In this document: in pieces, positions 20,203 through 33,142 of the stretch
Layout of the letters: each line of letters starts with the position of its first letter
Numbering within the stretch: the stretch's first letter is position 1
Origin: a virus
IMG/VR virus record: IMGVR_UViG_3300005825_000039
Coordinates: 1 to 40,276 of that record
Strand: one strand, 5' to 3'
Length of the DNA stretch: 40,276 nt
Made by a program: the position numbers and the translations under genes
The notes under the pieces: model-generated
Told to the model about the DNA's origin: nothing
The model's input: only the letters and a program-made list of their open reading frames with translations
Databases searched by the model: none

Positions 20203-23130
20203 TCACTCACCTCCTTCCTGGCCCGACTCCTGAGTCTTCTTTGCAAGAGCCCCCAGGAGCGCGGTTACCCCCGAAACACCCCCCATCGCTGCGAGGAGGG
20301 TGGGGTCGATACTGCCGATGGGGAGCTTCCCAGTGAGGTAGAGGTCCCGGACCTCGGTCGGGGGCCTCCCGGTGCGCTCCGCGGTCTTCATGATGGCCTG
20401 GGAGATGAGTTCGAGCTTGCCGGCGCCGATGGGCGTATTCACCCCGGTCTGGCGTGCGAGAGCGCCCCATTGCAGAGCCTGGGCCGGTACAGATTGAATC
20501 CCCTGCCGCGCTGCAATCTCCTGATACCAAGGCCAGAGGGTATTCATCTCGGGGAGTGATACCGACTGCGCGTAGGCCTTGTTCGTGCGGGTGTCCGCGA
20601 GGCCTACACCCCGAGCCCAGTGCGCGTCTCCGACCGCGTAGTTGCTCTGCATCCCCAGCTCTGGGGGCCGGCCTGCCTTCTCGTAAGCAGCGACCTTCGC
20701 AGCGTCCCCGGTGGAGCCGGTCGCCAGGAAGCCCTCCATCGGCTTCGCCTGGGAGGTGCTGTGGTATGGGTGGGGCTTCATGAACGCCAGCTCGGGGTCA
20801 TCCGGGAAGCTCACCCGACCCCCGCCCTTCATTCCGCCGCGGTCCTTGAACTCCTGGAACCTGCCCTGGTTATTGAGCCAGTCTGCGGCAGAGCCTCGGT
20901 TTATCTCCCAGTCCACCGGGGAGCCTGGGCTCGCGAGCGAGGTCAGCCCATGGAGCATATTGAACCGCTCCGCAGCTTTCTCCGGCCCCAGTAACTGCAC
21001 CATCCGCTGGTAGAGCGGGTCCATCACGTACCAGCCCTGCATATCTCGCAGCCCTGGCGTGTTCTGGGCAGCGTCAAGGATGTTGCCGATACGTCGCTCA
21101 TTGCTGGGCGTCATGATGCGCTGCGCGGCCCTGCTCCCTCTCCCCCTCTCAGGGGTGGCCGGCGGCACCCACGGCTCCAGCGGGGGGCCCCCGTTGGCGT
21201 TCATGGCGTTGCCCTTCCCGACCGTGCTCGCGCGGGTGGCGCCGATGTTGGTGAGGTCCTCCCGGGTCACGCCCCACAGCTCCCGGAGTGCGGGGTCCTC
21301 GGGTGAAACCCGGACATCCTTCACGATGTCCGCGGGGTTGCCGTAGATGCCAGGGTACTCGGAGCGCTCCCGGCCGCCCCTGAAGCGGGTAGCGGAGCGG
21401 GTAACTGGGGGGACCGTGCCCTTGTTCGAGCCGCCCTCCCCCATCCTCTTCAGCTCCTTCTCCAGCTGCGCCTCGGTCATATCCGGGGCGGGCACCCCAG
21501 CCCCCTCGGAGGCCATCAACGCCGGGCCTCTGTTGTGGCCCATGAGCGCCGCCCGGTCAGCTGGAGTGTTTAAACCGTTCCCTTCGAGGTCGAGCGCGTC
21601 GTAGATGTCGAACTTGGTCCCCGTGGCCCCTGAGCCCGGGATTTTCTCGGGGGAAGCGTAAGCCCGGTAATTCCGGTGCATCCAGTACGGGTTGTCTCGA
21701 AGCTCGCTCAGGGGCTTGTTGAAGTCCCGCCCCGCGGACCACGCTGTCAGTTCCCCGGTGGAGTCCATGTACTTCTGGTACGCGCTCTTCCCCCTCCCGC
21801 CGAGCGCGTCCAGGAACTGTGCAGTGGTACGGCCAGCGATTCGGCCCCCCAGAGCATTCACCGCGCTCCGAACCGCTTCGGGGTCCTTGAGCTGCTCGTC
21901 TGTGAGGTTCACCCGGGGATTACTCCGCAGGATTCCCCTCGCTTCTGCCTCCAGAAAATCATCGGTGTATTGCCCCAGGTTCGCTCCAGGCTCCATCCCC
22001 AGGAAGTTGGCGAGAGCGTGGTTCCCTTCATGCACGATGGGCCCGAGGTAGCCCTTCTCCATGTTGGTCCCTATTTCGGCAAAGGGGTGCAGCCCGAATA
22101 TCTGCCCGTACTCGGTGTTGTCAGGCCCGCCCTGGAGGAGTGTGCCTCTGCCGTTCGGCCGCGCAAAGCCGCCATAGGTTTTCGCTGACTTCGCGGCTTC
22201 CTCGCTCGGGGTCCTGGGATACGCGAAGCCGACCGACACATCAGGCATGTTCGGATGCGCCTGCATCCCTCCCTCCCAGTCCACTGCATCACCGAGGCGG
22301 CCCTGCATCTGGGTCCCGGTAGCCCTACTCGTGCTCCACTTGAAGCCCTCAGGGACAGCGTTTCGCAGAGCCTCTATCTTCGCTGAATGCTCAGCGCTCC
22401 AGGCCATGTTCGCTTCCCGCTCCGCCCTCGTCATGGTTGGCCCGTACTTGTGCGGGGGCGGCTCCGTGATGAGGGCGGTGAGCTTGTCCAGGTACTCCTT
22501 GACGTTGGGCTTCAGCGCTATCTTGTCTGCAATTTGCTCGACCCAGGCGCCGTGACGTTTGCTCCAGCCGGTCTCTTTCAAGATGAGTTCGGCCGGGAAG
22601 CCCGCCTTGAGCATCCGCTGCGCCTCGGCTTTCATCTCCAGGTTGGCGATGGGGCTGTTCTCGTTGATGAACGAACGGACGGTACTCCGGCCGCTGTTCA
22701 CCGTGCCCTTGAGCCCGCCCCCTGAGAGCATCGCCGCGCCGAACTGGGTCGCGTTCATCGGGCCCAGAATGGTCGAGACGCTGTCGTAGACCATCTTCTG
22801 CTCGGGGGTCTGCAGGAACCCAGGCGTAGGCGCCCCCTGGTCCGTCCAGGCGCCCCCCGCCCTCTGCTGCGCGTCCCACTCCGCGGCTTTACGTTGACGC
22901 TCCGCCTCCTGCGTCCTGAGCGCTTCTCGGGAGTAGCCTGGGGTGCCGGGCTCCAGGTAGCCGGCGGAGCTGAGCTGGGGCGGAGAGGGGCGCGTGGCGG
23001 CGGAGTAGACCCTGCTCAGCAGCTCCAGCGGGTTCAGCACCGGGGTCTCCGGCCTGGGGATGTCCATGTTGGTCCCGCTGATGAGGCCGGAGCCGCTGAA
23101 CGCCTTCGAGAGATAATCAAGCGGCCCCAT
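20203..23130 (-). CDS. Large polyvalent-type protein with zincin metallopeptidase motif
   Basis: About 975 residues from ATG 23130 (overlapping the portal end by 14 bp). A GW-type module near residues 168-206 (LKAGFPAELILKETGWSKRHGAWVEQIAD) resembles the large polyvalent protein-associated domains of phages and mobile elements. A zincin motif IVHEGNHALA (HExxH at about 367-371) is followed by 'YTDDFLEAEARG', giving the likely third ligand Glu. The C-terminal 150 residues (LWPWYQEIAARQGIQS, 'GVNTPIGAGKLELISQAI') resemble a domain seen at the ends of other phage polyvalent proteins. Located between portal and scaffold, a slot often used for injected effector or protease domains. Substrate unknown. 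Octamer at 21568 (G-L-N). Confidence 0.75.
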   Translation of the reverse strand: MGPLDYLSKAFSGSGLISGTNMDIPRPETPVLNPLELLSRVYSAATRPSPPQLSSAGYLEPGTPGYSREALRTQEAERQRKAAEWDAQQRAGGAWTDQGAPTPGFLQTPEQKMVYDSVSTILGPMNATQFGAAMLSGGGLKGTVNSGRSTVRSFINENSPIANLEMKAEAQRMLKAGFPAELILKETGWSKRHGAWVEQIADKIALKPNVKEYLDKLTALITEPPPHKYGPTMTRAEREANMAWSAEHSAKIEALRNAVPEGFKWSTSRATGTQMQGRLGDAVDWEGGMQAHPNMPDVSVGFAYPRTPSEEAAKSAKTYGGFARPNGRGTLLQGGPDNTEYGQIFGLHPFAEIGTNMEKGYLGPIVHEGNHALANFLGMEPGANLGQYTDDFLEAEARGILRSNPRVNLTDEQLKDPEAVRSAVNALGGRIAGRTTAQFLDALGGRGKSAYQKYMDSTGELTAWSAGRDFNKPLSELRDNPYWMHRNYRAYASPEKIPGSGATGTKFDIYDALDLEGNGLNTPADRAALMGHNRGPALMASEGAGVPAPDMTEAQLEKELKRMGEGGSNKGTVPPVTRSATRFRGGRERSEYPGIYGNPADIVKDVRVSPEDPALRELWGVTREDLTNIGATRASTVGKGNAMNANGGPPLEPWVPPATPERGRGSRAAQRIMTPSNERRIGNILDAAQNTPGLRDMQGWYVMDPLYQRMVQLLGPEKAAERFNMLHGLTSLASPGSPVDWEINRGSAADWLNNQGRFQEFKDRGGMKGGGRVSFPDDPELAFMKPHPYHSTSQAKPMEGFLATGSTGDAAKVAAYEKAGRPPELGMQSNYAVGDAHWARGVGLADTRTNKAYAQSVSLPEMNTLWPWYQEIAARQGIQSVPAQALQWGALARQTGVNTPIGAGKLELISQAIMKTAERTGRPPTEVRDLYLTGKLPIGSIDPTLLAAMGGVSGVTALLGALAKKTQESGQEGGE

Positions 23131-25309
23131 CGGAGACCCCCGCCTTGTTGTCCGCATTCTGCTGTGAAAGGTCGACCTTTGCGGCAACCTCCAGCTCCGT
23201 GAGCTTGGTCGCCATCTCCTGGTAGAGCTTCTCGTATTTAAACACCAGCTCCGCAGAGCGACCTTGAGCTTCGAGGGCGGTCTTCATCCGGTCGTTCTCT
23301 TGCGACTTGCTCTCCAGCTCAGCCTGGAGCTTGATTATGGAGGCCTCCATCTGGTTCTCCTTCTGGGAGGCCTCCTGCTGCCGCTGAGCCTGCTCCTGAA
23401 TGAACTTCTTCGCCTCGTCGCTCTTCGGGTCCTGCCAGTAGTCCTCGGGCCTCCCGATACTGCTGAACCGGACATAGTCCTCTAGCGCACGGTGCATGTG
23501 GTCGTGCGTCACCAGCACCCCCAGCCCGCCCCCTGACGCGACCTGAGCCTGGAGCCCAATGACTTCCCGGATAAGCATCTGCTGCTTCATCCTGTCCCCG
23601 GTACCGAGGCCCACCTTCACGGTGGCCCCGCCCCGCTCTTTCCACTCGGTCGGGTTCACCGTGGTCCACTTCCCGCGAATCGGCACCGGGAGGGGCTGGT
23701 TCTGGTGCTTGGTGAGCAGTTCCCGGAGTATCAGCATCATCGGCTTCACGCCGGTCTCCGCGAGCACCCGCACGATGAGGCCGACCAGTTTCTCTTTTGC
23801 GGTCATCAGCCGCTCCACGCTGTGCGCGGGGCTGTTGCCCGGAATCATCCCCATCTCGGCGCCCTCAGGGCTCACCCCGGTACGGCCATCCCGGACCTTG
23901 TCCAAGTACTCCAGCGCGGTATATGCGGCCTGCCCCACTGGGGGCGTGATGAGCGGCTCGACCATCCCCGGCGCCTTCTGGCGGACGACTCCGCCAGGGC
24001 GGGAAGTCAGGAGGTCGTCCAGATTCACCTGCCCCACGACCGCGGCGACACGGGAATTGTTCTGGAGGTAGAGGTTGTCGAGGATGGAGCGCCAGATTCC
24101 CGTCTTCTGGTCGGCAATCATGCGGGCCCGGTCGTAGATGCTCATCCCGGTGAACTTGTGGGACATCAGAATCGGGGTCGTGCCGCAGAACGGGTGCCGG
24201 TCCCATGGCTCCATCGAGAGCAAGCTGAAGCTCCCGGTCTGGCCCCCTACGAAGCACTGGAACAGCTCAGGGACCCCATCTCCATAGAGGTCGAACTTGC
24301 GATAGCACTCGGTTATCTGCACCGTCCTGGAGAGGAGGTCCGAGCCCTCTCCATCAGTCCCGAAGCCAGAACCCATCTCCCTCTCGAAGCGTTCGCTACG
24401 CTCCTCGTCCTCGTCAATGCTGTAGGGCGGGAGGTCTTCCAGCTCCTCGATGCTCCAGCCCTCGTCCACCAGCGCACCGATGGTCGTGACCCGGCGGTGC
24501 CCGGTGAACCGAGCTTCATCCAGGATGATGGAGGTGTGGTCGGAGTTGAGGAGGAACTCCGAGTTCGGAATGCACTCGACCTTGCTCACGCTGTCGGTGA
24601 GGCGCCGCCGGATGGTGATGTCGTGGAGGGCGATGGTGGGCCCGAGCACCGGGGCGAGCTGGGGCGGGCTCTGCTCCTGGTAGCTACGGTGCTCGATGAT
24701 TTGGTCCTGCTCGTTTAAACCGGACAGCAGGGCCTGCATCTCGACATCGTTCTGCCCCTCGTAGGTCTCCCGCTTCACCTTGTTCTGCTGGCACTGGTAG
24801 ACCTTCACGACCCCGTTGCGTTCGAGGAGTGCGTCCTTCACGAACTCATGGAGCACCACGAAACCGTTGCACCGCTTGGAGAAGACGTAGTTGGTCGCCT
24901 CGGTCTCCAGGTCCGCCTGGGACTCGTCCTCCTCGCCCCTGGGGTCGAAGCTGACGACCCCGTTCGGGTCCATCAGCGACTCCATGATGGTGGGCATCAT
25001 CCACTCGATGACATCGGTCACGTCAGTGGACTGGACCGCTGAGCGACCCTCTTCCTCGTCCCCTCTGGGGTCGCCCCGGTAGTAGGCGTTGGCGAGGAGC
25101 CGGTCCTCCCGGAGCGAGCTGTAGTCGCCCCCGAGGCTGTCCTCTATGTCCTTGCTGAGGATGCTGAGAATCTCATCCTCGGTGAGAGCCCGGTCTTCCC
25201 CGGGCTCGGAGCTGTCGTCCGTGTCGGGAGCGTCGAACTCCTGCGCCAGCTGCTCTAGCAGAGCCTGCTCTTCGAGCTGACTCTCCATCTCATCTCTTGC
25301 TGTCGCCAT
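23117..25309 (-). CDS. Portal protein (P22/podovirus type)
   Basis: 730 residues. Acidic N-terminus, then 'DYSSLREDRLLANAYYRGDPRGDEEEGRSAVQSTDVTDVIEWMMPTIMESLM', the hallmark opening of the podovirus portal family, followed by 'FVKDALLERNGVVKVYQ', 'DRARMIADQKTGIWRSILDNLYLQNNSRVAAVVG' and a C-terminal coiled coil (residues about 640-720) consistent with a barrel/crown. Forms the dodecameric DNA gateway. ATG 25309 follows GGGAGCGGGG. It begins 18 bp after the tRNA-like RNA. Octamer sites at 23236 (F-K) and 24713 (G-L-N). Confidence 0.92.
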   Translation of the reverse strand: MATARDEMESQLEEQALLEQLAQEFDAPDTDDSSEPGEDRALTEDEILSILSKDIEDSLGGDYSSLREDRLLANAYYRGDPRGDEEEGRSAVQSTDVTDVIEWMMPTIMESLMDPNGVVSFDPRGEEDESQADLETEATNYVFSKRCNGFVVLHEFVKDALLERNGVVKVYQCQQNKVKRETYEGQNDVEMQALLSGLNEQDQIIEHRSYQEQSPPQLAPVLGPTIALHDITIRRRLTDSVSKVECIPNSEFLLNSDHTSIILDEARFTGHRRVTTIGALVDEGWSIEELEDLPPYSIDEDEERSERFEREMGSGFGTDGEGSDLLSRTVQITECYRKFDLYGDGVPELFQCFVGGQTGSFSLLSMEPWDRHPFCGTTPILMSHKFTGMSIYDRARMIADQKTGIWRSILDNLYLQNNSRVAAVVGQVNLDDLLTSRPGGVVRQKAPGMVEPLITPPVGQAAYTALEYLDKVRDGRTGVSPEGAEMGMIPGNSPAHSVERLMTAKEKLVGLIVRVLAETGVKPMMLILRELLTKHQNQPLPVPIRGKWTTVNPTEWKERGGATVKVGLGTGDRMKQQMLIREVIGLQAQVASGGGLGVLVTHDHMHRALEDYVRFSSIGRPEDYWQDPKSDEAKKFIQEQAQRQQEASQKENQMEASIIKLQAELESKSQENDRMKTALEAQGRSAELVFKYEKLYQEMATKLTELEVAAKVDLSQQNADNKAGVSDGAA

Positions 25310-25327
25310 CCCCGCTCCCGCTTGTGA

Positions 25328-25529
25328 TGGTGGACCTTGGAAGGATTCGGACCCTCCGCCGCAGAAACTCCGTCAAGCTTCTGCCACACGCTTCCTCTCC
25401 GGTTACGAGCCGGTGAGTGTGTCTCCTCGGGTAGCCTCATATTGAGCCAAGCTCGGACGGCTGGAGGAACCGTGGTCACCCGCTACATGAGAATCCAACC
25501 CCGGGGCTCTACCGCTGAGCTAAAGGCCC
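25328..25529 (-). ncRNA. 202-nt structured RNA with tRNA-like ends (interrupted or expanded tRNA-like gene)
   Basis: Minus strand, 5' end at 25529. It starts GGGCCTT-TA-GCTC-AGCGGTA-GAGC: a 7-nt acceptor arm and a perfect 4-bp D arm with an intact A-box. It ends with a T-arm-like hairpin (GGAGGG-TCCGAAT-CCTTCC, 6 bp, one base off the usual TTCRA loop) then AAGGTCC-A-CCA. The acceptor halves (25523-25529 and 25332-25338) pair over 7 bp with one G-U, and A73 and CCA are encoded. No anticodon arm fits. Instead about 146 nt lie between the D and T arms and contain at least four hairpins (ACGGT/GCCGT, GAGC/GCTC, CTC-CCGG/CCGG-GAG with loop CTCGTAA, GCAGAA/TTCTGC). The 5' end is one base past the terminase stop; the 3' end is 18 bp before the portal start. 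Confidence 0.6.
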
Positions 25530-25530
25530 G

Positions 25531-27132
25531 TCAAATTACACGCTTGTCAATGCCAGTGTAGTCCAACTCCCTATTCCAGTCATTCCCTGGTCTACGCCCG
25601 CTCTGGTGCGCTTCCTGGGCCCTCCGCCGGCCCTCATCGAGACCGGTGGTCGCCGTCTCCATATCGGCGCAGGCGTAGACGACTGCGTCCCCCCGGTCGG
25701 GAGAGCGCCCGAGCCTGTCCGCTCTGGCTAGTTCCTCCTTCGCCTCGACCTGGATGGCTCCGTACTTCCCAGCCATCACCAGCTTGTAGCGTGGGGCGGT
25801 CAGCTCAGCCAGGGTCTGGTCGTCAGGGTGGAGCGCGATGGCGTACTCCGACGCGGGGTCAAGCCGCTCCCGCATGGTCCAGTACCAGTAGGCCCGCTTG
25901 TTCTTGAACCGGAAGCGCCCGGTGCGGTCGAGGAGGGCAGTCCCCTCGGCACCGTTTAAACCTTCCACCATCACCCCGAGGAGGTCGAGGTGGTCCACCA
26001 CCGAGGAGCCGATTCCTATCACATCCACGTTTGCCTTGGCACCGCGGCGCAGGTTCTGCACCACCAACGCAGCCCCAGCTGGGCCGTTCGGGACCATCTT
26101 CCCGGGGAAGGCCTTCACTTCATCGAGCCAGTTCCCGTGCCGCGCAACAATCACGAACTCGTCCTTGCCGCCCCTGCTCGGGTCCACCCCGAGCGCGTCC
26201 ATCTCGCCCTTGTCGCCTTCCTTGCGTGGCTCCCACCGTTCCATCGCGGCCTCGACCCACGCAGTTGGTATCACTTGGTACTCGTGGTCCTCCACCCCGG
26301 CGTTGAAGTCGCCATCGAGCATCTGCGACCTGAGCGGCTCAGGGAGCGACTGCAGCTGGGCCCGGTACCCTGAGCGCAGGAGGAATGGGTTGTCCTCGAC
26401 ATGACTCGGGATGAAGGTCCTGGACTTCGGGACAATCAGCTCCTCCTTGCCGCCCTCACTGTGCAGGAAGGGGGCGCCGCTCTCCAGCTCCACATCCGCT
26501 TTCCCGAGGGTGGCGAAGTACCGCAGCTCCCCTGGCGCCGCCGGGTTCGGATGCCGGCGGTCAAGCCAGGGCGCCCAGTACTGGACCACCCACCGCTCCT
26601 CGGGTCGCGTTGGTGGGTTGCCTGCACAGACCACCCGCTTTCGCTGCTTCGGGTTCACCGAGCGAAGCCAGCCCATCAAGAACCTGAACTGGTCCGCGGT
26701 GAAGTGGCATATTTCATCGAAGCCGATGAGGTCGTGAGGGCGGCCCTGATACTTCCTCTCGTCGCCTACGTTGGGGCATGAGCCCAGCTCAATCTGCCGG
26801 TAAGGTTGAGGCCTGAATATCTTCTCAGAGCCGTTGTAGCAGTCCCGGGGCACCAGCTCCAGATAGCGGTCGATGATGCCCTGGAGCTGGGTCGCCTCCC
26901 GCCGGAACACGATGCTCTTGCTATGCTCGCTGAGGCTCAAGCCCACCAGGAGGTCAGTCTTGCCGCCACCGGCGGAGCCCCCATAGAAGATGATGTCTGC
27001 CTTCGATTCCCAGGCCGCGGTTTGCGGCCCCGGAAGCGGGACCCAGGCTCCTGTCTGTTTAAACAGCAGCTCCTGCTCCTCCCGGGACAGCGCAGCCACC
27101 AGCTGCTCCATCTGCTGTAGTGCGCTACTCAC
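25531..27132 (-). CDS. terL: Terminase large subunit
   Basis: 533 residues, an ATP-driven packaging motor with nuclease. Walker A GGSAGGGKTD at residues 51-60; Walker B DLIGFDE with catalytic D139-E140; coupling motif 'VCAGNPP' near 168-174. The C-terminal RNase H-like nuclease has a first Asp in GVDPSRGG (D317), a second in VDVIGIGS (D370) and a late 'SPDRGDAVVYACAD' segment. The start overlaps the coiled-coil ORF by eight bases. Octamer sites: 25954 (G-L-N) and 27057 (F-K). Immediately followed by the tRNA-like RNA and portal. Confidence 0.95.
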   Translation of the reverse strand: MSSALQQMEQLVAALSREEQELLFKQTGAWVPLPGPQTAAWESKADIIFYGGSAGGGKTDLLVGLSLSEHSKSIVFRREATQLQGIIDRYLELVPRDCYNGSEKIFRPQPYRQIELGSCPNVGDERKYQGRPHDLIGFDEICHFTADQFRFLMGWLRSVNPKQRKRVVCAGNPPTRPEERWVVQYWAPWLDRRHPNPAAPGELRYFATLGKADVELESGAPFLHSEGGKEELIVPKSRTFIPSHVEDNPFLLRSGYRAQLQSLPEPLRSQMLDGDFNAGVEDHEYQVIPTAWVEAAMERWEPRKEGDKGEMDALGVDPSRGGKDEFVIVARHGNWLDEVKAFPGKMVPNGPAGAALVVQNLRRGAKANVDVIGIGSSVVDHLDLLGVMVEGLNGAEGTALLDRTGRFRFKNKRAYWYWTMRERLDPASEYAIALHPDDQTLAELTAPRYKLVMAGKYGAIQVEAKEELARADRLGRSPDRGDAVVYACADMETATTGLDEGRRRAQEAHQSGRRPGNDWNRELDYTGIDKRVI

Positions 27133-29977: not shown

Positions 29978-32059
29978 TCAGAGCTGCCTCTCCAATTCTC
30001 TCCGCACATCCGCAGCCCCCGCAGTCTCCCACTGGATTGGATTTCGGAGTATCCGCGACCTCACTGTGCCCCACTCCCCTCCTAGATTCAGCCGCAGCTG
30101 CGGCAACCCCAGCTCCGTGAGTGCCATCCCGAGCGCTCTCCTCGCTCCCATTCCACCGAAGAGCCGTTTCGTGTCGTACCCGAGGAATGCCTGCTCGACC
30201 ATCTCAGTCGTCACCACATCCCGTGCGAGCTGACCCTCGCGTCGTTCAATCATCCCCCTCAGGAGCGTGCTCAGCTCGCTCTTGCTGTCTTCCCGCACAT
30301 CCGAGTGCCAGCAGGTGCGGGGTGGCGGCGCCCCCGGCTTGAAGTGGCTCAAGTCGCGTCTCAGGAGGTATCCCATGACCGCACGGTCGCCCCCTCCGTC
30401 GACCCACTGGTGGATGCCCCTCCAGTAGCGCACCCAGGGCTCGCTCGTGCGCTCCGCCTCACTGAAGCTCCTCCTGGCCCACATCATGAAGTAGCGGCGG
30501 TCGTGCTCGCTCACGTAGAGCGGGACGCTGTCGTTCGTGGTCAGCACCAGCTGCACCACGTTCGGTGCGTGGTAGGGCGCGAGCCCCTTCGGATGGATGC
30601 TGATGTCCTTCGGGGGCGCCGCGCAGAGCGGCTTCAGCTGGTTCTCGATGTCGCGTGCCTCACGCCGGCCACCGACCTGGGCCTCCTGCACGATGAGGAG
30701 CTTCTTGCCGGCGAGCCAGTCACTGAAGCCGGTGAGCAGGAGGTCCGCGGGGATGTCGCCCGTGTTGCCGAGCCCCACCGCTCTCCTGATGGGCTCCAGG
30801 ATGGTGTCCTTGCCCACACCCGGCATCCCTCCCATCACGATTGCGTGGTTCACCTTCAGGTGCGGGTGCTGCAGCAGGAACGCCATGTAGTCGAGGAAGT
30901 GCTCGACCTCCGCCGGCTCGAACTGCGCGACATCACGCAGCAGCTGCAGCCAGGGCTCCGCATCCCACTCTTCGTGCGGCGTCAGCTCTGTGGGGAACCA
31001 TGTGTTTAAACATCGTCTCCCGCCATGCCAGACCTCGCCCCCGCCCTCCCCCGCACCGGGCCAGTAGGTGAGCGAATCGAAGCGCTCGATGCCGCCATCC
31101 TCGAACGCTTCCTTGTAGCGGTCCTGCTCGCCCACATTGAATGACGCCCTGAAAGCTTCACGCTTGAGCAGCTGCCTCGCTCTGCGGTCGTAGACCCTGT
31201 CCAGTCCGATGATGTAGGCGAAGCGCTCACGCAAGCTCAGGGGGCTCCTCTCGCCCTCCAGCCGGGCCCGCTCACCCTTGAGGATGGTGCCCATCCGTTT
31301 CATCTCGGACCTGATAGCCGACACGGTGAGGCCGCTCACGTCCTTCAGCTGCGCGATGAGGCTCTCCTGCCAGAGCGGGTCCATCTCCAGGAGGTACGGT
31401 ATCTCCGCCCGAGCTGCCTCCACATCATGCGGCGGGAGCCGTGCGATGCGGGCCTGGAGCGCATCCGGTGTGATGAGCACCTCCAGCTCGGATATCGGTT
31501 TGAGGTCCTTAACCGGTTTGACAAGCCCCATCGACTCCAGGCTGCAGTGCTGCCCGTTCAGCTTGAGGAAGCTGGGTGTCTCCCGCTTCACTGGCAGCAG
31601 CATCGCGAGCGTCTTTGCCCTCGCCGCCTGCCGCTCCTCCATGGACTGCTTCGCCGGGAGCACGCAGTAACGCCACAGCCACAGCTCGGGGTCGCCCCTC
31701 CCGGCCCCACGGTGCTCCTCCGCTGCGTCAACGCAGTACCCGGAGTGCATCAGTATCGCGAGCACCGTGGTGGGGTCGTACCGCTTGAGGAGGCTGAGCG
31801 AGATGCCGTAGATGGCCGAGCTGCGGTCGTCACCGTAGCCGCCTGCATCGCCATCGTTGTAGAAGGCTCGCTGCTTGTCGTTTAAACCGAGGTACCAGCT
31901 CTCGGGGGCGTCGACCGTCTCCCACTCCGGGACCTCCACGCTGCGGTCAACCGTGCTCCGGTTCTTGCACCACTCCCGCAGCTCCGCCTCCAGCTCGGGA
32001 GGCATCTGGTACACCTTGAACGGGACCGGGTGCGCCAGGGTGTAGTAGATGTCACTCAT
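29978..32059 (-). CDS. SF3-type replicative helicase (DUF5906/D5-like)
   Basis: 693 residues. The N-terminal part (about 70-150, 'DDRSSAIYGISLSLLKRYDPTTVLAILMHSGYCV') resembles the PriCT-type segment that follows Prim-Pol domains. The helicase core has Walker A GGMPGVGKDT (residues 410-419), a Walker B-like LLIVQEAQ, and a sensor/Arg-finger region 'VLTTNDSVPLYVSEHDRRYFMMW'. The C-terminus is winged-helix-like. The Prim-Pol domain usually fused to this helicase is encoded separately just upstream. Start behind GGGAGGAG inside a 20-codon ORF. Octamers at 31004 (C-L-N) and 31880 (G-L-N). Confidence 0.9.
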   Translation of the reverse strand: MSDIYYTLAHPVPFKVYQMPPELEAELREWCKNRSTVDRSVEVPEWETVDAPESWYLGLNDKQRAFYNDGDAGGYGDDRSSAIYGISLSLLKRYDPTTVLAILMHSGYCVDAAEEHRGAGRGDPELWLWRYCVLPAKQSMEERQAARAKTLAMLLPVKRETPSFLKLNGQHCSLESMGLVKPVKDLKPISELEVLITPDALQARIARLPPHDVEAARAEIPYLLEMDPLWQESLIAQLKDVSGLTVSAIRSEMKRMGTILKGERARLEGERSPLSLRERFAYIIGLDRVYDRRARQLLKREAFRASFNVGEQDRYKEAFEDGGIERFDSLTYWPGAGEGGGEVWHGGRRCLNTWFPTELTPHEEWDAEPWLQLLRDVAQFEPAEVEHFLDYMAFLLQHPHLKVNHAIVMGGMPGVGKDTILEPIRRAVGLGNTGDIPADLLLTGFSDWLAGKKLLIVQEAQVGGRREARDIENQLKPLCAAPPKDISIHPKGLAPYHAPNVVQLVLTTNDSVPLYVSEHDRRYFMMWARRSFSEAERTSEPWVRYWRGIHQWVDGGGDRAVMGYLLRRDLSHFKPGAPPPRTCWHSDVREDSKSELSTLLRGMIERREGQLARDVVTTEMVEQAFLGYDTKRLFGGMGARRALGMALTELGLPQLRLNLGGEWGTVRSRILRNPIQWETAGAADVRRELERQL

Positions 32060-32114
32060 CAGGCGACTCCTCCCATGGGAAGGGGCATGGCTTCAGGACC
32101 GCTGAGCTGCTCAT
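32052..32114 (-). CDS. Tiny 20-codon ORF bridging two genes
   Basis: MSSSAVLKPCPFPWEESPDE. ATG 32114 overlaps the stop of the 66-codon gene (ATGA), its 3' end overlaps the helicase start by eight bases, and its last codons contain the helicase ribosome binding site. It may exist only to couple translation. 'LKPCPF' matches the start of the Lar-type zinc ribbon (usually KPCPFCG), but the remaining cysteines are absent. Confidence 0.35.
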   Translation of the reverse strand: MSSSAVLKPCPFPWEESPDE

Positions 32115-32311
32115 AGCTGCTCTCCTTCCTCGAAGCCTCGGGCTATCAGCACATCGTCGTTCGTCATCGGAACCCATTTCGTGCCAGTGACACGGGCGAA
32201 CCACTTCCCCCCGTACTTCCGAGCCTCCCAGATATGCCACTCACCTCCGTACCTGACCATGGCGTAGCGTTTCGGCCTGAGGCCCAGCAGCCTCCTCCAG
32301 AGCCAGTTCAT
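32111..32311 (-). CDS. Small basic Trp-rich hypothetical protein
   Basis: 66 residues: MNWLWRRLLGLRPKRYAMVRYGGEWHIWEARKYGGKWFARV..., basic and Trp/Tyr rich, with a beta pattern after an amphipathic N-terminus. ATG 32311 overlaps the Prim-Pol stop (ATGA), so it is part of the replication operon. It could bind nucleic acid or membrane, but no family is recognised. Confidence 0.55.
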   Translation of the reverse strand: MNWLWRRLLGLRPKRYAMVRYGGEWHIWEARKYGGKWFARVTGTKWVPMTNDDVLIARGFEEGEQL

Positions 32312-32820
32312 CGCCCGGTTACCGTGTATTCGCCGGCACCCTCTATCCGCGAGGGGGGCACGAGCACGTATGCGTTGTCGTTCTGGATGTCGAGACAGCC
32401 CATCGCGCTATGAGTGGTCGGGAAGCCCTCCAGGTACCGCATGTAGATGTGCTTCCCACCGGAGGGCGTGACCACCTCACAGAGGAACCCATCTACCTGC
32501 GGCGCCATCGCGCCGATGATGCGCTCGAAGAACAACACACCATCCGCCTCCCGCTGCTCCTGGGTCTTCACGTCGAGGTCGATGACGGTGAGGTTGCTCC
32601 CCTTGCCGGTCGCGATGGCGACATTGCTCCCAGGGTGCGCCCGGAACATGGAGAGCAACTCATCGAGGTCGCTGGTCGCCCGTTCCTTCCAGGCGAAGCC
32701 TGGGTAGGGAACCTTCGAGCGGGGGTAGATGGGAAAGCACCGAAAGCCATTGCTGGAGTAGAGCGCGAGCCAATACTCCAGTGCCTGTTGATAGGCCTGT
32801 TCTGTTTCTGTAGCATCCAT
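32308..32820 (-). CDS. Stand-alone Prim-Pol (bifunctional DNA primase/polymerase domain)
   Basis: 170 residues from ATG 32820 (GGAG seven bases upstream). It carries the AEP Prim-Pol signature: N-terminal 'ALEYWLALYSSNGFRCFPIYPRSKVPYPGFAWKE', 'GSNVAIATGKGSNLTVIDLDVK' with the metal-binding DLD motif, 'TPSGGKHIYMR' (SGGxH), and 'LDIQNDNAYVLVPPSRI'. Synthesises primers for the adjacent SF3 helicase. Unlike the common fused protein, it ends after the catalytic domain and is followed by two small ORFs before the helicase gene. Confidence 0.9.
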   Translation of the reverse strand: MDATETEQAYQQALEYWLALYSSNGFRCFPIYPRSKVPYPGFAWKERATSDLDELLSMFRAHPGSNVAIATGKGSNLTVIDLDVKTQEQREADGVLFFERIIGAMAPQVDGFLCEVVTPSGGKHIYMRYLEGFPTTHSAMGCLDIQNDNAYVLVPPSRIEGAGEYTVTGR

Positions 32821-32865
32821 GTTGCCACTCCTCAGTGGTCGTTTGTTGCCATTTTCGCTCCCTTC

Positions 32866-32892
32866 AGCCCCCGCTAACCCCGGGGGCTTTTT
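32866..32892 (+). terminator. Rho-independent terminator on the plus strand
   Basis: Stem AGCCCCC / GGGGGCT (32866-32872, 32882-32888), 9-nt loop, then TTTT. Oriented rightward, opposite to all neighbouring genes, and located between the Prim-Pol start and the Cro-like gene stop. It would stop plus-strand transcription before it enters the regulator gene. No T-tract on the minus side. Confidence 0.7.
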
Positions 32893-32896
32893 ACTG

Positions 32897-33142
32897 TCAT
32901 AGGCGCACCCCCAGCACCTCACGGGCGACCGTGATGTACTTCGCGAACTGAATCGCGACCGGGTTCGTGCGGCTCCCGTTGAGAAAGCTCCTGCAGCTCG
33001 ATGGCGGGAGCCCAGTGCGAGCGTGCAGCTCCGGCGCCCCCATCTTCGCGGCGAGGAGGACCTCCCTCACGTAGTGTGCCTCGCCCCTCTCCAGGTTGGC
33101 GAGGAACGATGTCGCGGTGACCCGCGGCTTCCTGGTCTTCAT
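32897..33142 (-). CDS. Cro/C1-type HTH transcriptional regulator
   Basis: 81 residues. The centre (about 26-58: VLLAAKMGAPELHARTGLPPSSCRSFLNGSRTNP) matches the XRE-type helix-turn-helix with the recognition helix around 'PPSSCRSFLNG'. Short basic N-terminus, no oligomerisation domain, so Cro-like. It is divergent from the rightward early genes. Two operator-like copies lie upstream: TGACGCGATTGAGTCA at 33187-33202 within a weak minus promoter, and TGACTCCCTTGTATCA at 33147-33162 overlapping its ribosome binding site. This suggests autoregulation and control of the operator-bearing promoters. No repressor partner was seen in the window. Confidence 0.75.
   Translation of the reverse strand: MKTRKPRVTATSFLANLERGEAHYVREVLLAAKMGAPELHARTGLPPSSCRSFLNGSRTNPVAIQFAKYITVAREVLGVRL

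Follow-up and report, generated by a model that had tools for sequence, protein, structure and literature searches.

A 202-nt element on the minus strand of a viral DNA of 40,276 nucleotides, which was analysed over its full length (the window), has the ends of a tRNA gene, beyond what chance would give, but as a whole RNA it is not an ordinary tRNA. With a probability of roughly 55%, we consider it to be a single acquired tRNA gene that has been expanded and is probably decaying, perhaps a lone expansion without a settled function.

The element spans positions 25529-25328 (R1 = 25529 and R202 = 25328 in its own numbering) and lies between the large terminase subunit gene (terL, 25531-27132, minus strand; phrog_979, phrog_2) and the portal protein gene (23117-25309, minus strand; phrog_1216, PF23899 SU10_portal), with one base between it and the last base of the terL stop (25531) and 18 bases between its CCA and the portal ATG at 25309. 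An earlier sequence-only reading had given these limits and both distances without naming a strand, and they are exact when read on the minus strand, on which all features below are given; the tRNA-like arms that it described are likewise borne out. The 5′ strand of the acceptor stem, GGGCCTT (R1-7; 25523-25529), pairs with AAGGTCC (R192-198; 25332-25338) in 7/7 pairs, including a G-U at 3-70 of the alanine type, and this 3′ strand is followed by A at R199 (A73) and an encoded CCA at R200-202 (25328-25338 for strand, discriminator, and CCA together). Positions R8-24 read TA-GCTC-AGCGGTA-GAGC, in which the D arm (25506-25520) has 4/4 pairs and is matched by annotated phage tRNA genes. The T arm, GAGGG-TCCGAAT-CCTTC, has 5/5 pairs, to which an extra G173-C191 pair is added (six pairs, R173-191; 25339-25357; pair probability ~0.9), giving the 7+6 acceptor/T stack; matches to its 17-mer are ordinary tRNAs, among them intact viral tRNA genes. 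The T loop TCCGAAT, with C replacing T55, also occurs in viral tRNA genes of normal length (L026:1468-1545 and L027:4287-4361), so that this loop alone is no sign of decay. A 74-aa reading frame with a GTG start (25255-25479, minus strand) extends through the RNA and overlaps the portal gene in a different frame; nothing suggests that it is a gene.

That the ends are of tRNA type while the whole is not an ordinary tRNA follows from a pattern scan, from the targets of blastn matches, and from covariance scores. The scan, which combined acceptor pairing, T arm, CCA, and D arm and covered the window and 0.59 Mb (594 kb) of loci, returned at full stringency ordinary tRNA genes and this element only. 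A covariance model built from 20 ordinary phage tRNAs had its best match in the window at the 5′ end of the element (19.8 bits, E 8.6e-4; next best, 12.7), which is the only part of the element that it aligned well, whereas intact tRNAs mostly score >40 bits with the same model. Searching 50,697 phage records by blastn returned annotated genes for tRNA-Met, -Val, and -Ile as matches to the 5′ 24-28 nt, with E-values that are individually weak (0.6-8), the weight of these matches lying in the fact that the targets are tRNA genes in register; for the stretch behind these nucleotides, nothing beyond chance was found in the same records. ARAGORN made no call on the element, also with introns allowed and as a tmRNA, Rfam gave no family match even at E<=10, and neither recognised the whole molecule as a cloverleaf of ordinary size. 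The closest counterpart of the acceptor is found in an intact viral tRNA-Ala(TGC) (L137), which shares all seven acceptor pairs, G3-U70 among them, and A73 with the element; the other GGGCCTT tRNAs found carry G3-C70. This identity suggests, although it does not prove, an alanine-type origin of the element. Phage tRNA genes such as that of L137 share with the element the G3-U70 acceptor, A73, T8-A9, the D arm, and the T arm, from which the element departs in its ~125 extra nt, the lack of an ARAGORN call, and the 13-bp acceptor/T stack.

The extra bases, about 125 in total in the middle of the tRNA, lie on both sides of a hairpin that itself resembles an anticodon arm. The first stretch, of ~90 nt, runs from the D arm to this hairpin (R25-115; 25415-25505), gave no homologue among phages and plasmids, and folds no more stably than shuffles; the second, of 40 nt, replaces the variable loop (R133-172; 25358-25397) and is predicted to fold with a 10-bp hairpin at 25361-25384. 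The inner 148 nt fold at -54.7 kcal/mol, compared with -52.5 +/- 4.3 kcal/mol for shuffles, a value reached by 143/500 of them, and the whole RNA has a stability z of -1.76. The earlier description of ~146 nt of consecutive hairpins in place of an anticodon arm is thus right as to the extra inner sequence, but the hairpins are not statistically special, and "in place of" is not quite correct, since one inner hairpin is anticodon-like. This hairpin, ACCGG-CTCGTAA-CCGGA (R116-132; 25398-25414), in which CCGG-CUCGUAA-CCGG read from 25414 to 25398 has a likelihood of ~2% by chance, shows the make-up of an anticodon arm, with C32, U33, A37, A38, and the anticodon CGU. When the flanking stretches are omitted, ARAGORN recognises a normal-scoring tRNA-Thr(CGU) cloverleaf (111.5, and up to 116.5 with free trimming); with shuffled inserts, 5/300 reach 111.5 and 5/300 hold such an anticodon-like loop. 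Given this make-up, the ARAGORN score, and the rarity among shuffles, the hairpin may well be the original anticodon arm, now preceded by ~90 nt and followed by ~35 nt of added sequence. The 4-bp stem of the D arm can form, but the free minimum-energy fold lacks it (pair probability 0.02), R11-25 being paired with R119-135 instead.

Comparison with relatives indicates that the element is an addition at the terL-portal junction in one lineage, since the junctions of relatives hold nothing comparable. The nearest relative found, IMG/VR contig 3300022396_000298 (L002), is 56-58% identical in TerL and 45% in the portal protein; its terL stop overlaps the portal start. The TerL proteins of L002 and of the window (the latter of 533 aa, with residues 26-519 matching phrog_2) terminate at the same residue, which rules out the element as a lost terL C-terminus. 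In other relatives with terL followed by a portal-sized gene, the junction mostly measures -3 to 23 bases, with wider or unresolved gaps in a few loci, such as L006, L014, L046, L049, L050, L052, and L057, and with another gene separating the two in L066. None of the loci covered by a scan for tRNA-like elements (terL and portal kin from IMG/VR and GTDB genomes) contained anything comparable, and ARAGORN gave ordinary tRNAs only in the loci of major-capsid kin. DNA searches with the region and with the RNA alone against phages and plasmids gave meaningful matches for the 5′ tRNA half only, and the insert itself gave no homologue among phages, plasmids, and IMG/VR. The exact pattern TTTAGCTCAGCGGTAGAGCCCC had no match in IMG/VR, while the pattern of the D arm and CTCGTAA at their spacing had 50 matches and GGCCTTTAGCTCAG had 13, all of which were ordinary tRNAs or tRNA arrays on inspection. 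A 22-nt match in L012 sits within the terL reading frame and was taken as chance. The surroundings of the element show no promoter or terminator pattern, so that it is presumably co-transcribed with the packaging operon. Elsewhere in the window, the minus strand carries a split primase (29978-32922), consisting of a Prim-Pol domain protein (32308-32922) and a helicase/primase-like protein (29978-32059), each of which matches parts of phrog_1156.

From these observations, an ancestor of the phage would have gained one tRNA gene between terL and the portal gene, and this gene would then have expanded by ~90 nt between the D and anticodon arms and by ~35 nt in the variable loop, while the acceptor, D, and T arms and the CCA are kept. 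The ends could still be substrates for RNase P and 3′ nucleases, since the features read by these enzymes, the acceptor/T stack and the CCA, are intact, and a cut by RNase P at R1 could separate the terL and portal messages; decoding on the ribosome by the element as drawn is unlikely because 90 nt sit at position 26. Support for an expanded tRNA gene comes from the tRNA ends beyond chance, the acceptor identical to that of L137, and the anticodon-like arm within the insert; from the lack of an RNA at the junction in L002 and in kin whose terL abuts a portal-sized gene; and from an insert without excess stability or homologue and the lack of a promoter or terminator pattern around the element. 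Speaking against this explanation, neither the stems nor the CCA contain a mismatch, and the extra C191 has a partner in G173; an old relic would be expected to show less order. Arms as clean as these point to recent change or to selection, one sequence being compatible with either, and with the nearest relative at only 56-58% in TerL, a recent origin and an element conserved in closer kin are indistinguishable. Of the three possibilities raised by the sequence-only reading, a tRNA with an insertion and a decayed tRNA fit insofar as the element is tRNA-derived with extra sequence, whereas a new structured RNA finds no positive support: the insert has neither a homologue nor excess stability, and a single sequence leaves no room for covariation.

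A possible alternative is a functional tRNA-derived RNA of ~200 nt, with tRNA-like maturation of its ends, charging with alanine via G3-U70, and an inner domain with another task, for example as a decoy for tRNA-cutting defences or in a tmRNA-like role. Its clean stems, CCA, and alanine-type acceptor, and its retention in a tightly packed operon, would fit such a role, as would the finding that phage tRNAs counter tRNA-cutting defences (PMC10264068, PMC11555353), whereas an insert no more stable than shuffles, the lack of homologues, and the lack of an Rfam match at E<=10 argue against it. A more specific proposal, which we regard as doubtful, is that of a 202-nt alanine-accepting phage RNA, matured by RNase P from the packaging operon, in which the extra helices around the anticodon arm would give a new task (decoy, rescue, or late-message punctuation). 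tmRNA, an alanine-accepting tRNA-like RNA with a long insert, resembles the element in its G3-U70 acceptor, T arm, CCA, and long insert at the site of the anticodon arm. However, a D domain without a stem is a feature of tmRNA, whereas the element could form a complete 4-bp D stem, albeit one absent from its free fold, and it has no recognisable tag reading frame; tmRNA is disfavoured, as neither ARAGORN nor Rfam gave a tmRNA match.

That the element works in decoding, as a tRNA-Thr(CGU) or a misacylated Ala-type tRNA tolerating extra arms at position 26 and in the variable loop, is improbable. The anticodon-like arm does have U33 and A37, and the ARAGORN score is normal once the extra stretches are omitted, but an Ala-type acceptor would be combined with a Thr anticodon, position 27-43 would be A-A, and the D arm pairs with the anticodon-like hairpin in the free fold; furthermore, we know of no precedent for 90 nt at position 26 in bacterial tRNAs. 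A similarly improbable reading, if not more so, is that of an intron-bearing tRNA from which the insert is spliced out. Like tRNA genes with group I or bulge-helix-bulge introns, the element has intact tRNA ends on either side of extra sequence, but here this sequence lies at two places flanking the anticodon-like arm, so that two separate excisions would be required, and no intron family (Rfam, E<=10) or junction motif accompanies it. Excising any one stretch never leaves a convincing tRNA (best ARAGORN score, 108.8), and among six bulge-helix-bulge-like sites, those with an intron of 90-140 nt yield none, which tells against a classical intron as the insertion of the earlier reading. Anticodon-loop and bulge-helix-bulge introns were rejected, as their excision restores no good tRNA; a group I intron is disfavoured, there being no ribozyme core match at E<=10 and an insert too short for the known core.

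An assembly artefact fusing two molecules is very unlikely: the element comes from one metagenomic record without a second copy, but both ends build a single acceptor with matching strands, the end of TerL coincides with that in L002, the portal start is normal, and the G+C content of the element resembles that of the rest of the window. Hardly credible is a packaging RNA like that of phi29, which is similar in length and likewise found near packaging genes; the position between terminase and portal genes, on which the sequence-only reading had based its comparison, does agree, but the ends are tRNA-derived, the large terminase is an ordinary one (phrog_979/phrog_2, 533 aa) rather than a small phi29-type packaging ATPase, relatives sharing terminase and portal lack the element, and Rfam gave no match at E<=10.

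Two other phage tRNA loci came to light alongside the element. The first, found via blastn with the element, is an unannotated stretch of 86-91 nt that separates tRNA-Pro from tRNA-Gly in 20 records of Streptomyces phages from the genera Immanueltrevirus, Manuelvirus, and Flowerpowervirus, in which the 3′ half of a tRNA precedes its 5′ half. Candidates lie at L143:2950-3035 (Streptomyces phage Percastrophe MG663583.1, 16101-16186), L144:1450-1535, L150:1146-1231, L152:154-244, L153:153-243, and L154:154-244. Rejoined in the other order, the halves give a tRNA-Val(GAC) with ARAGORN scores of 119.9-121.2, with the anticodon AAC and 115.5 in FlowerPower, and with only 100.7-104.5 in Abafar and JXY1. 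Comparison of the genera shows changes on both sides of the anticodon stem (CCGGTC/GACCGG to CCGCTC/GAGCGG) and an exchange of the acceptor strands from TCACC/GGTGA to GGTGA/TCACC, where Abafar and FlowerPower have a bulged base. Judged by these sequences, the stretch looks like a conserved, real circularly permuted tRNA gene in phages, the rival being a relic of tandem duplication; the proteins of Percastrophe that were examined included no RNA ligase. A 2014 review counted 34 permuted tRNA genes in six algae and one archaeon (PMC3978253), and our literature search on permuted tRNA returned no phage-related title or abstract. This tRNA-Val may merit more attention than the 202-nt element. The second locus is in Aeromonas phage PS1 (L147; MN032614.2, 22327-22977), where a 28-nt 5′ half of a tRNA lies directly upstream of an HNH endonuclease gene and a complete tRNA-Met lies behind it; in phage AVP1, the sequence of this half belongs to an intact tRNA-Met, and PS1 looks like a case of an endonuclease gene inserted at a tRNA gene.

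As a functional RNA, the 202-nt element would represent a new tRNA-derived RNA in which the signals for maturation and charging are intact. As nothing more than an expanded, decaying tRNA, it would show the remodelling of a tRNA gene inside a late structural operon, at a place where relatives have no spare base.
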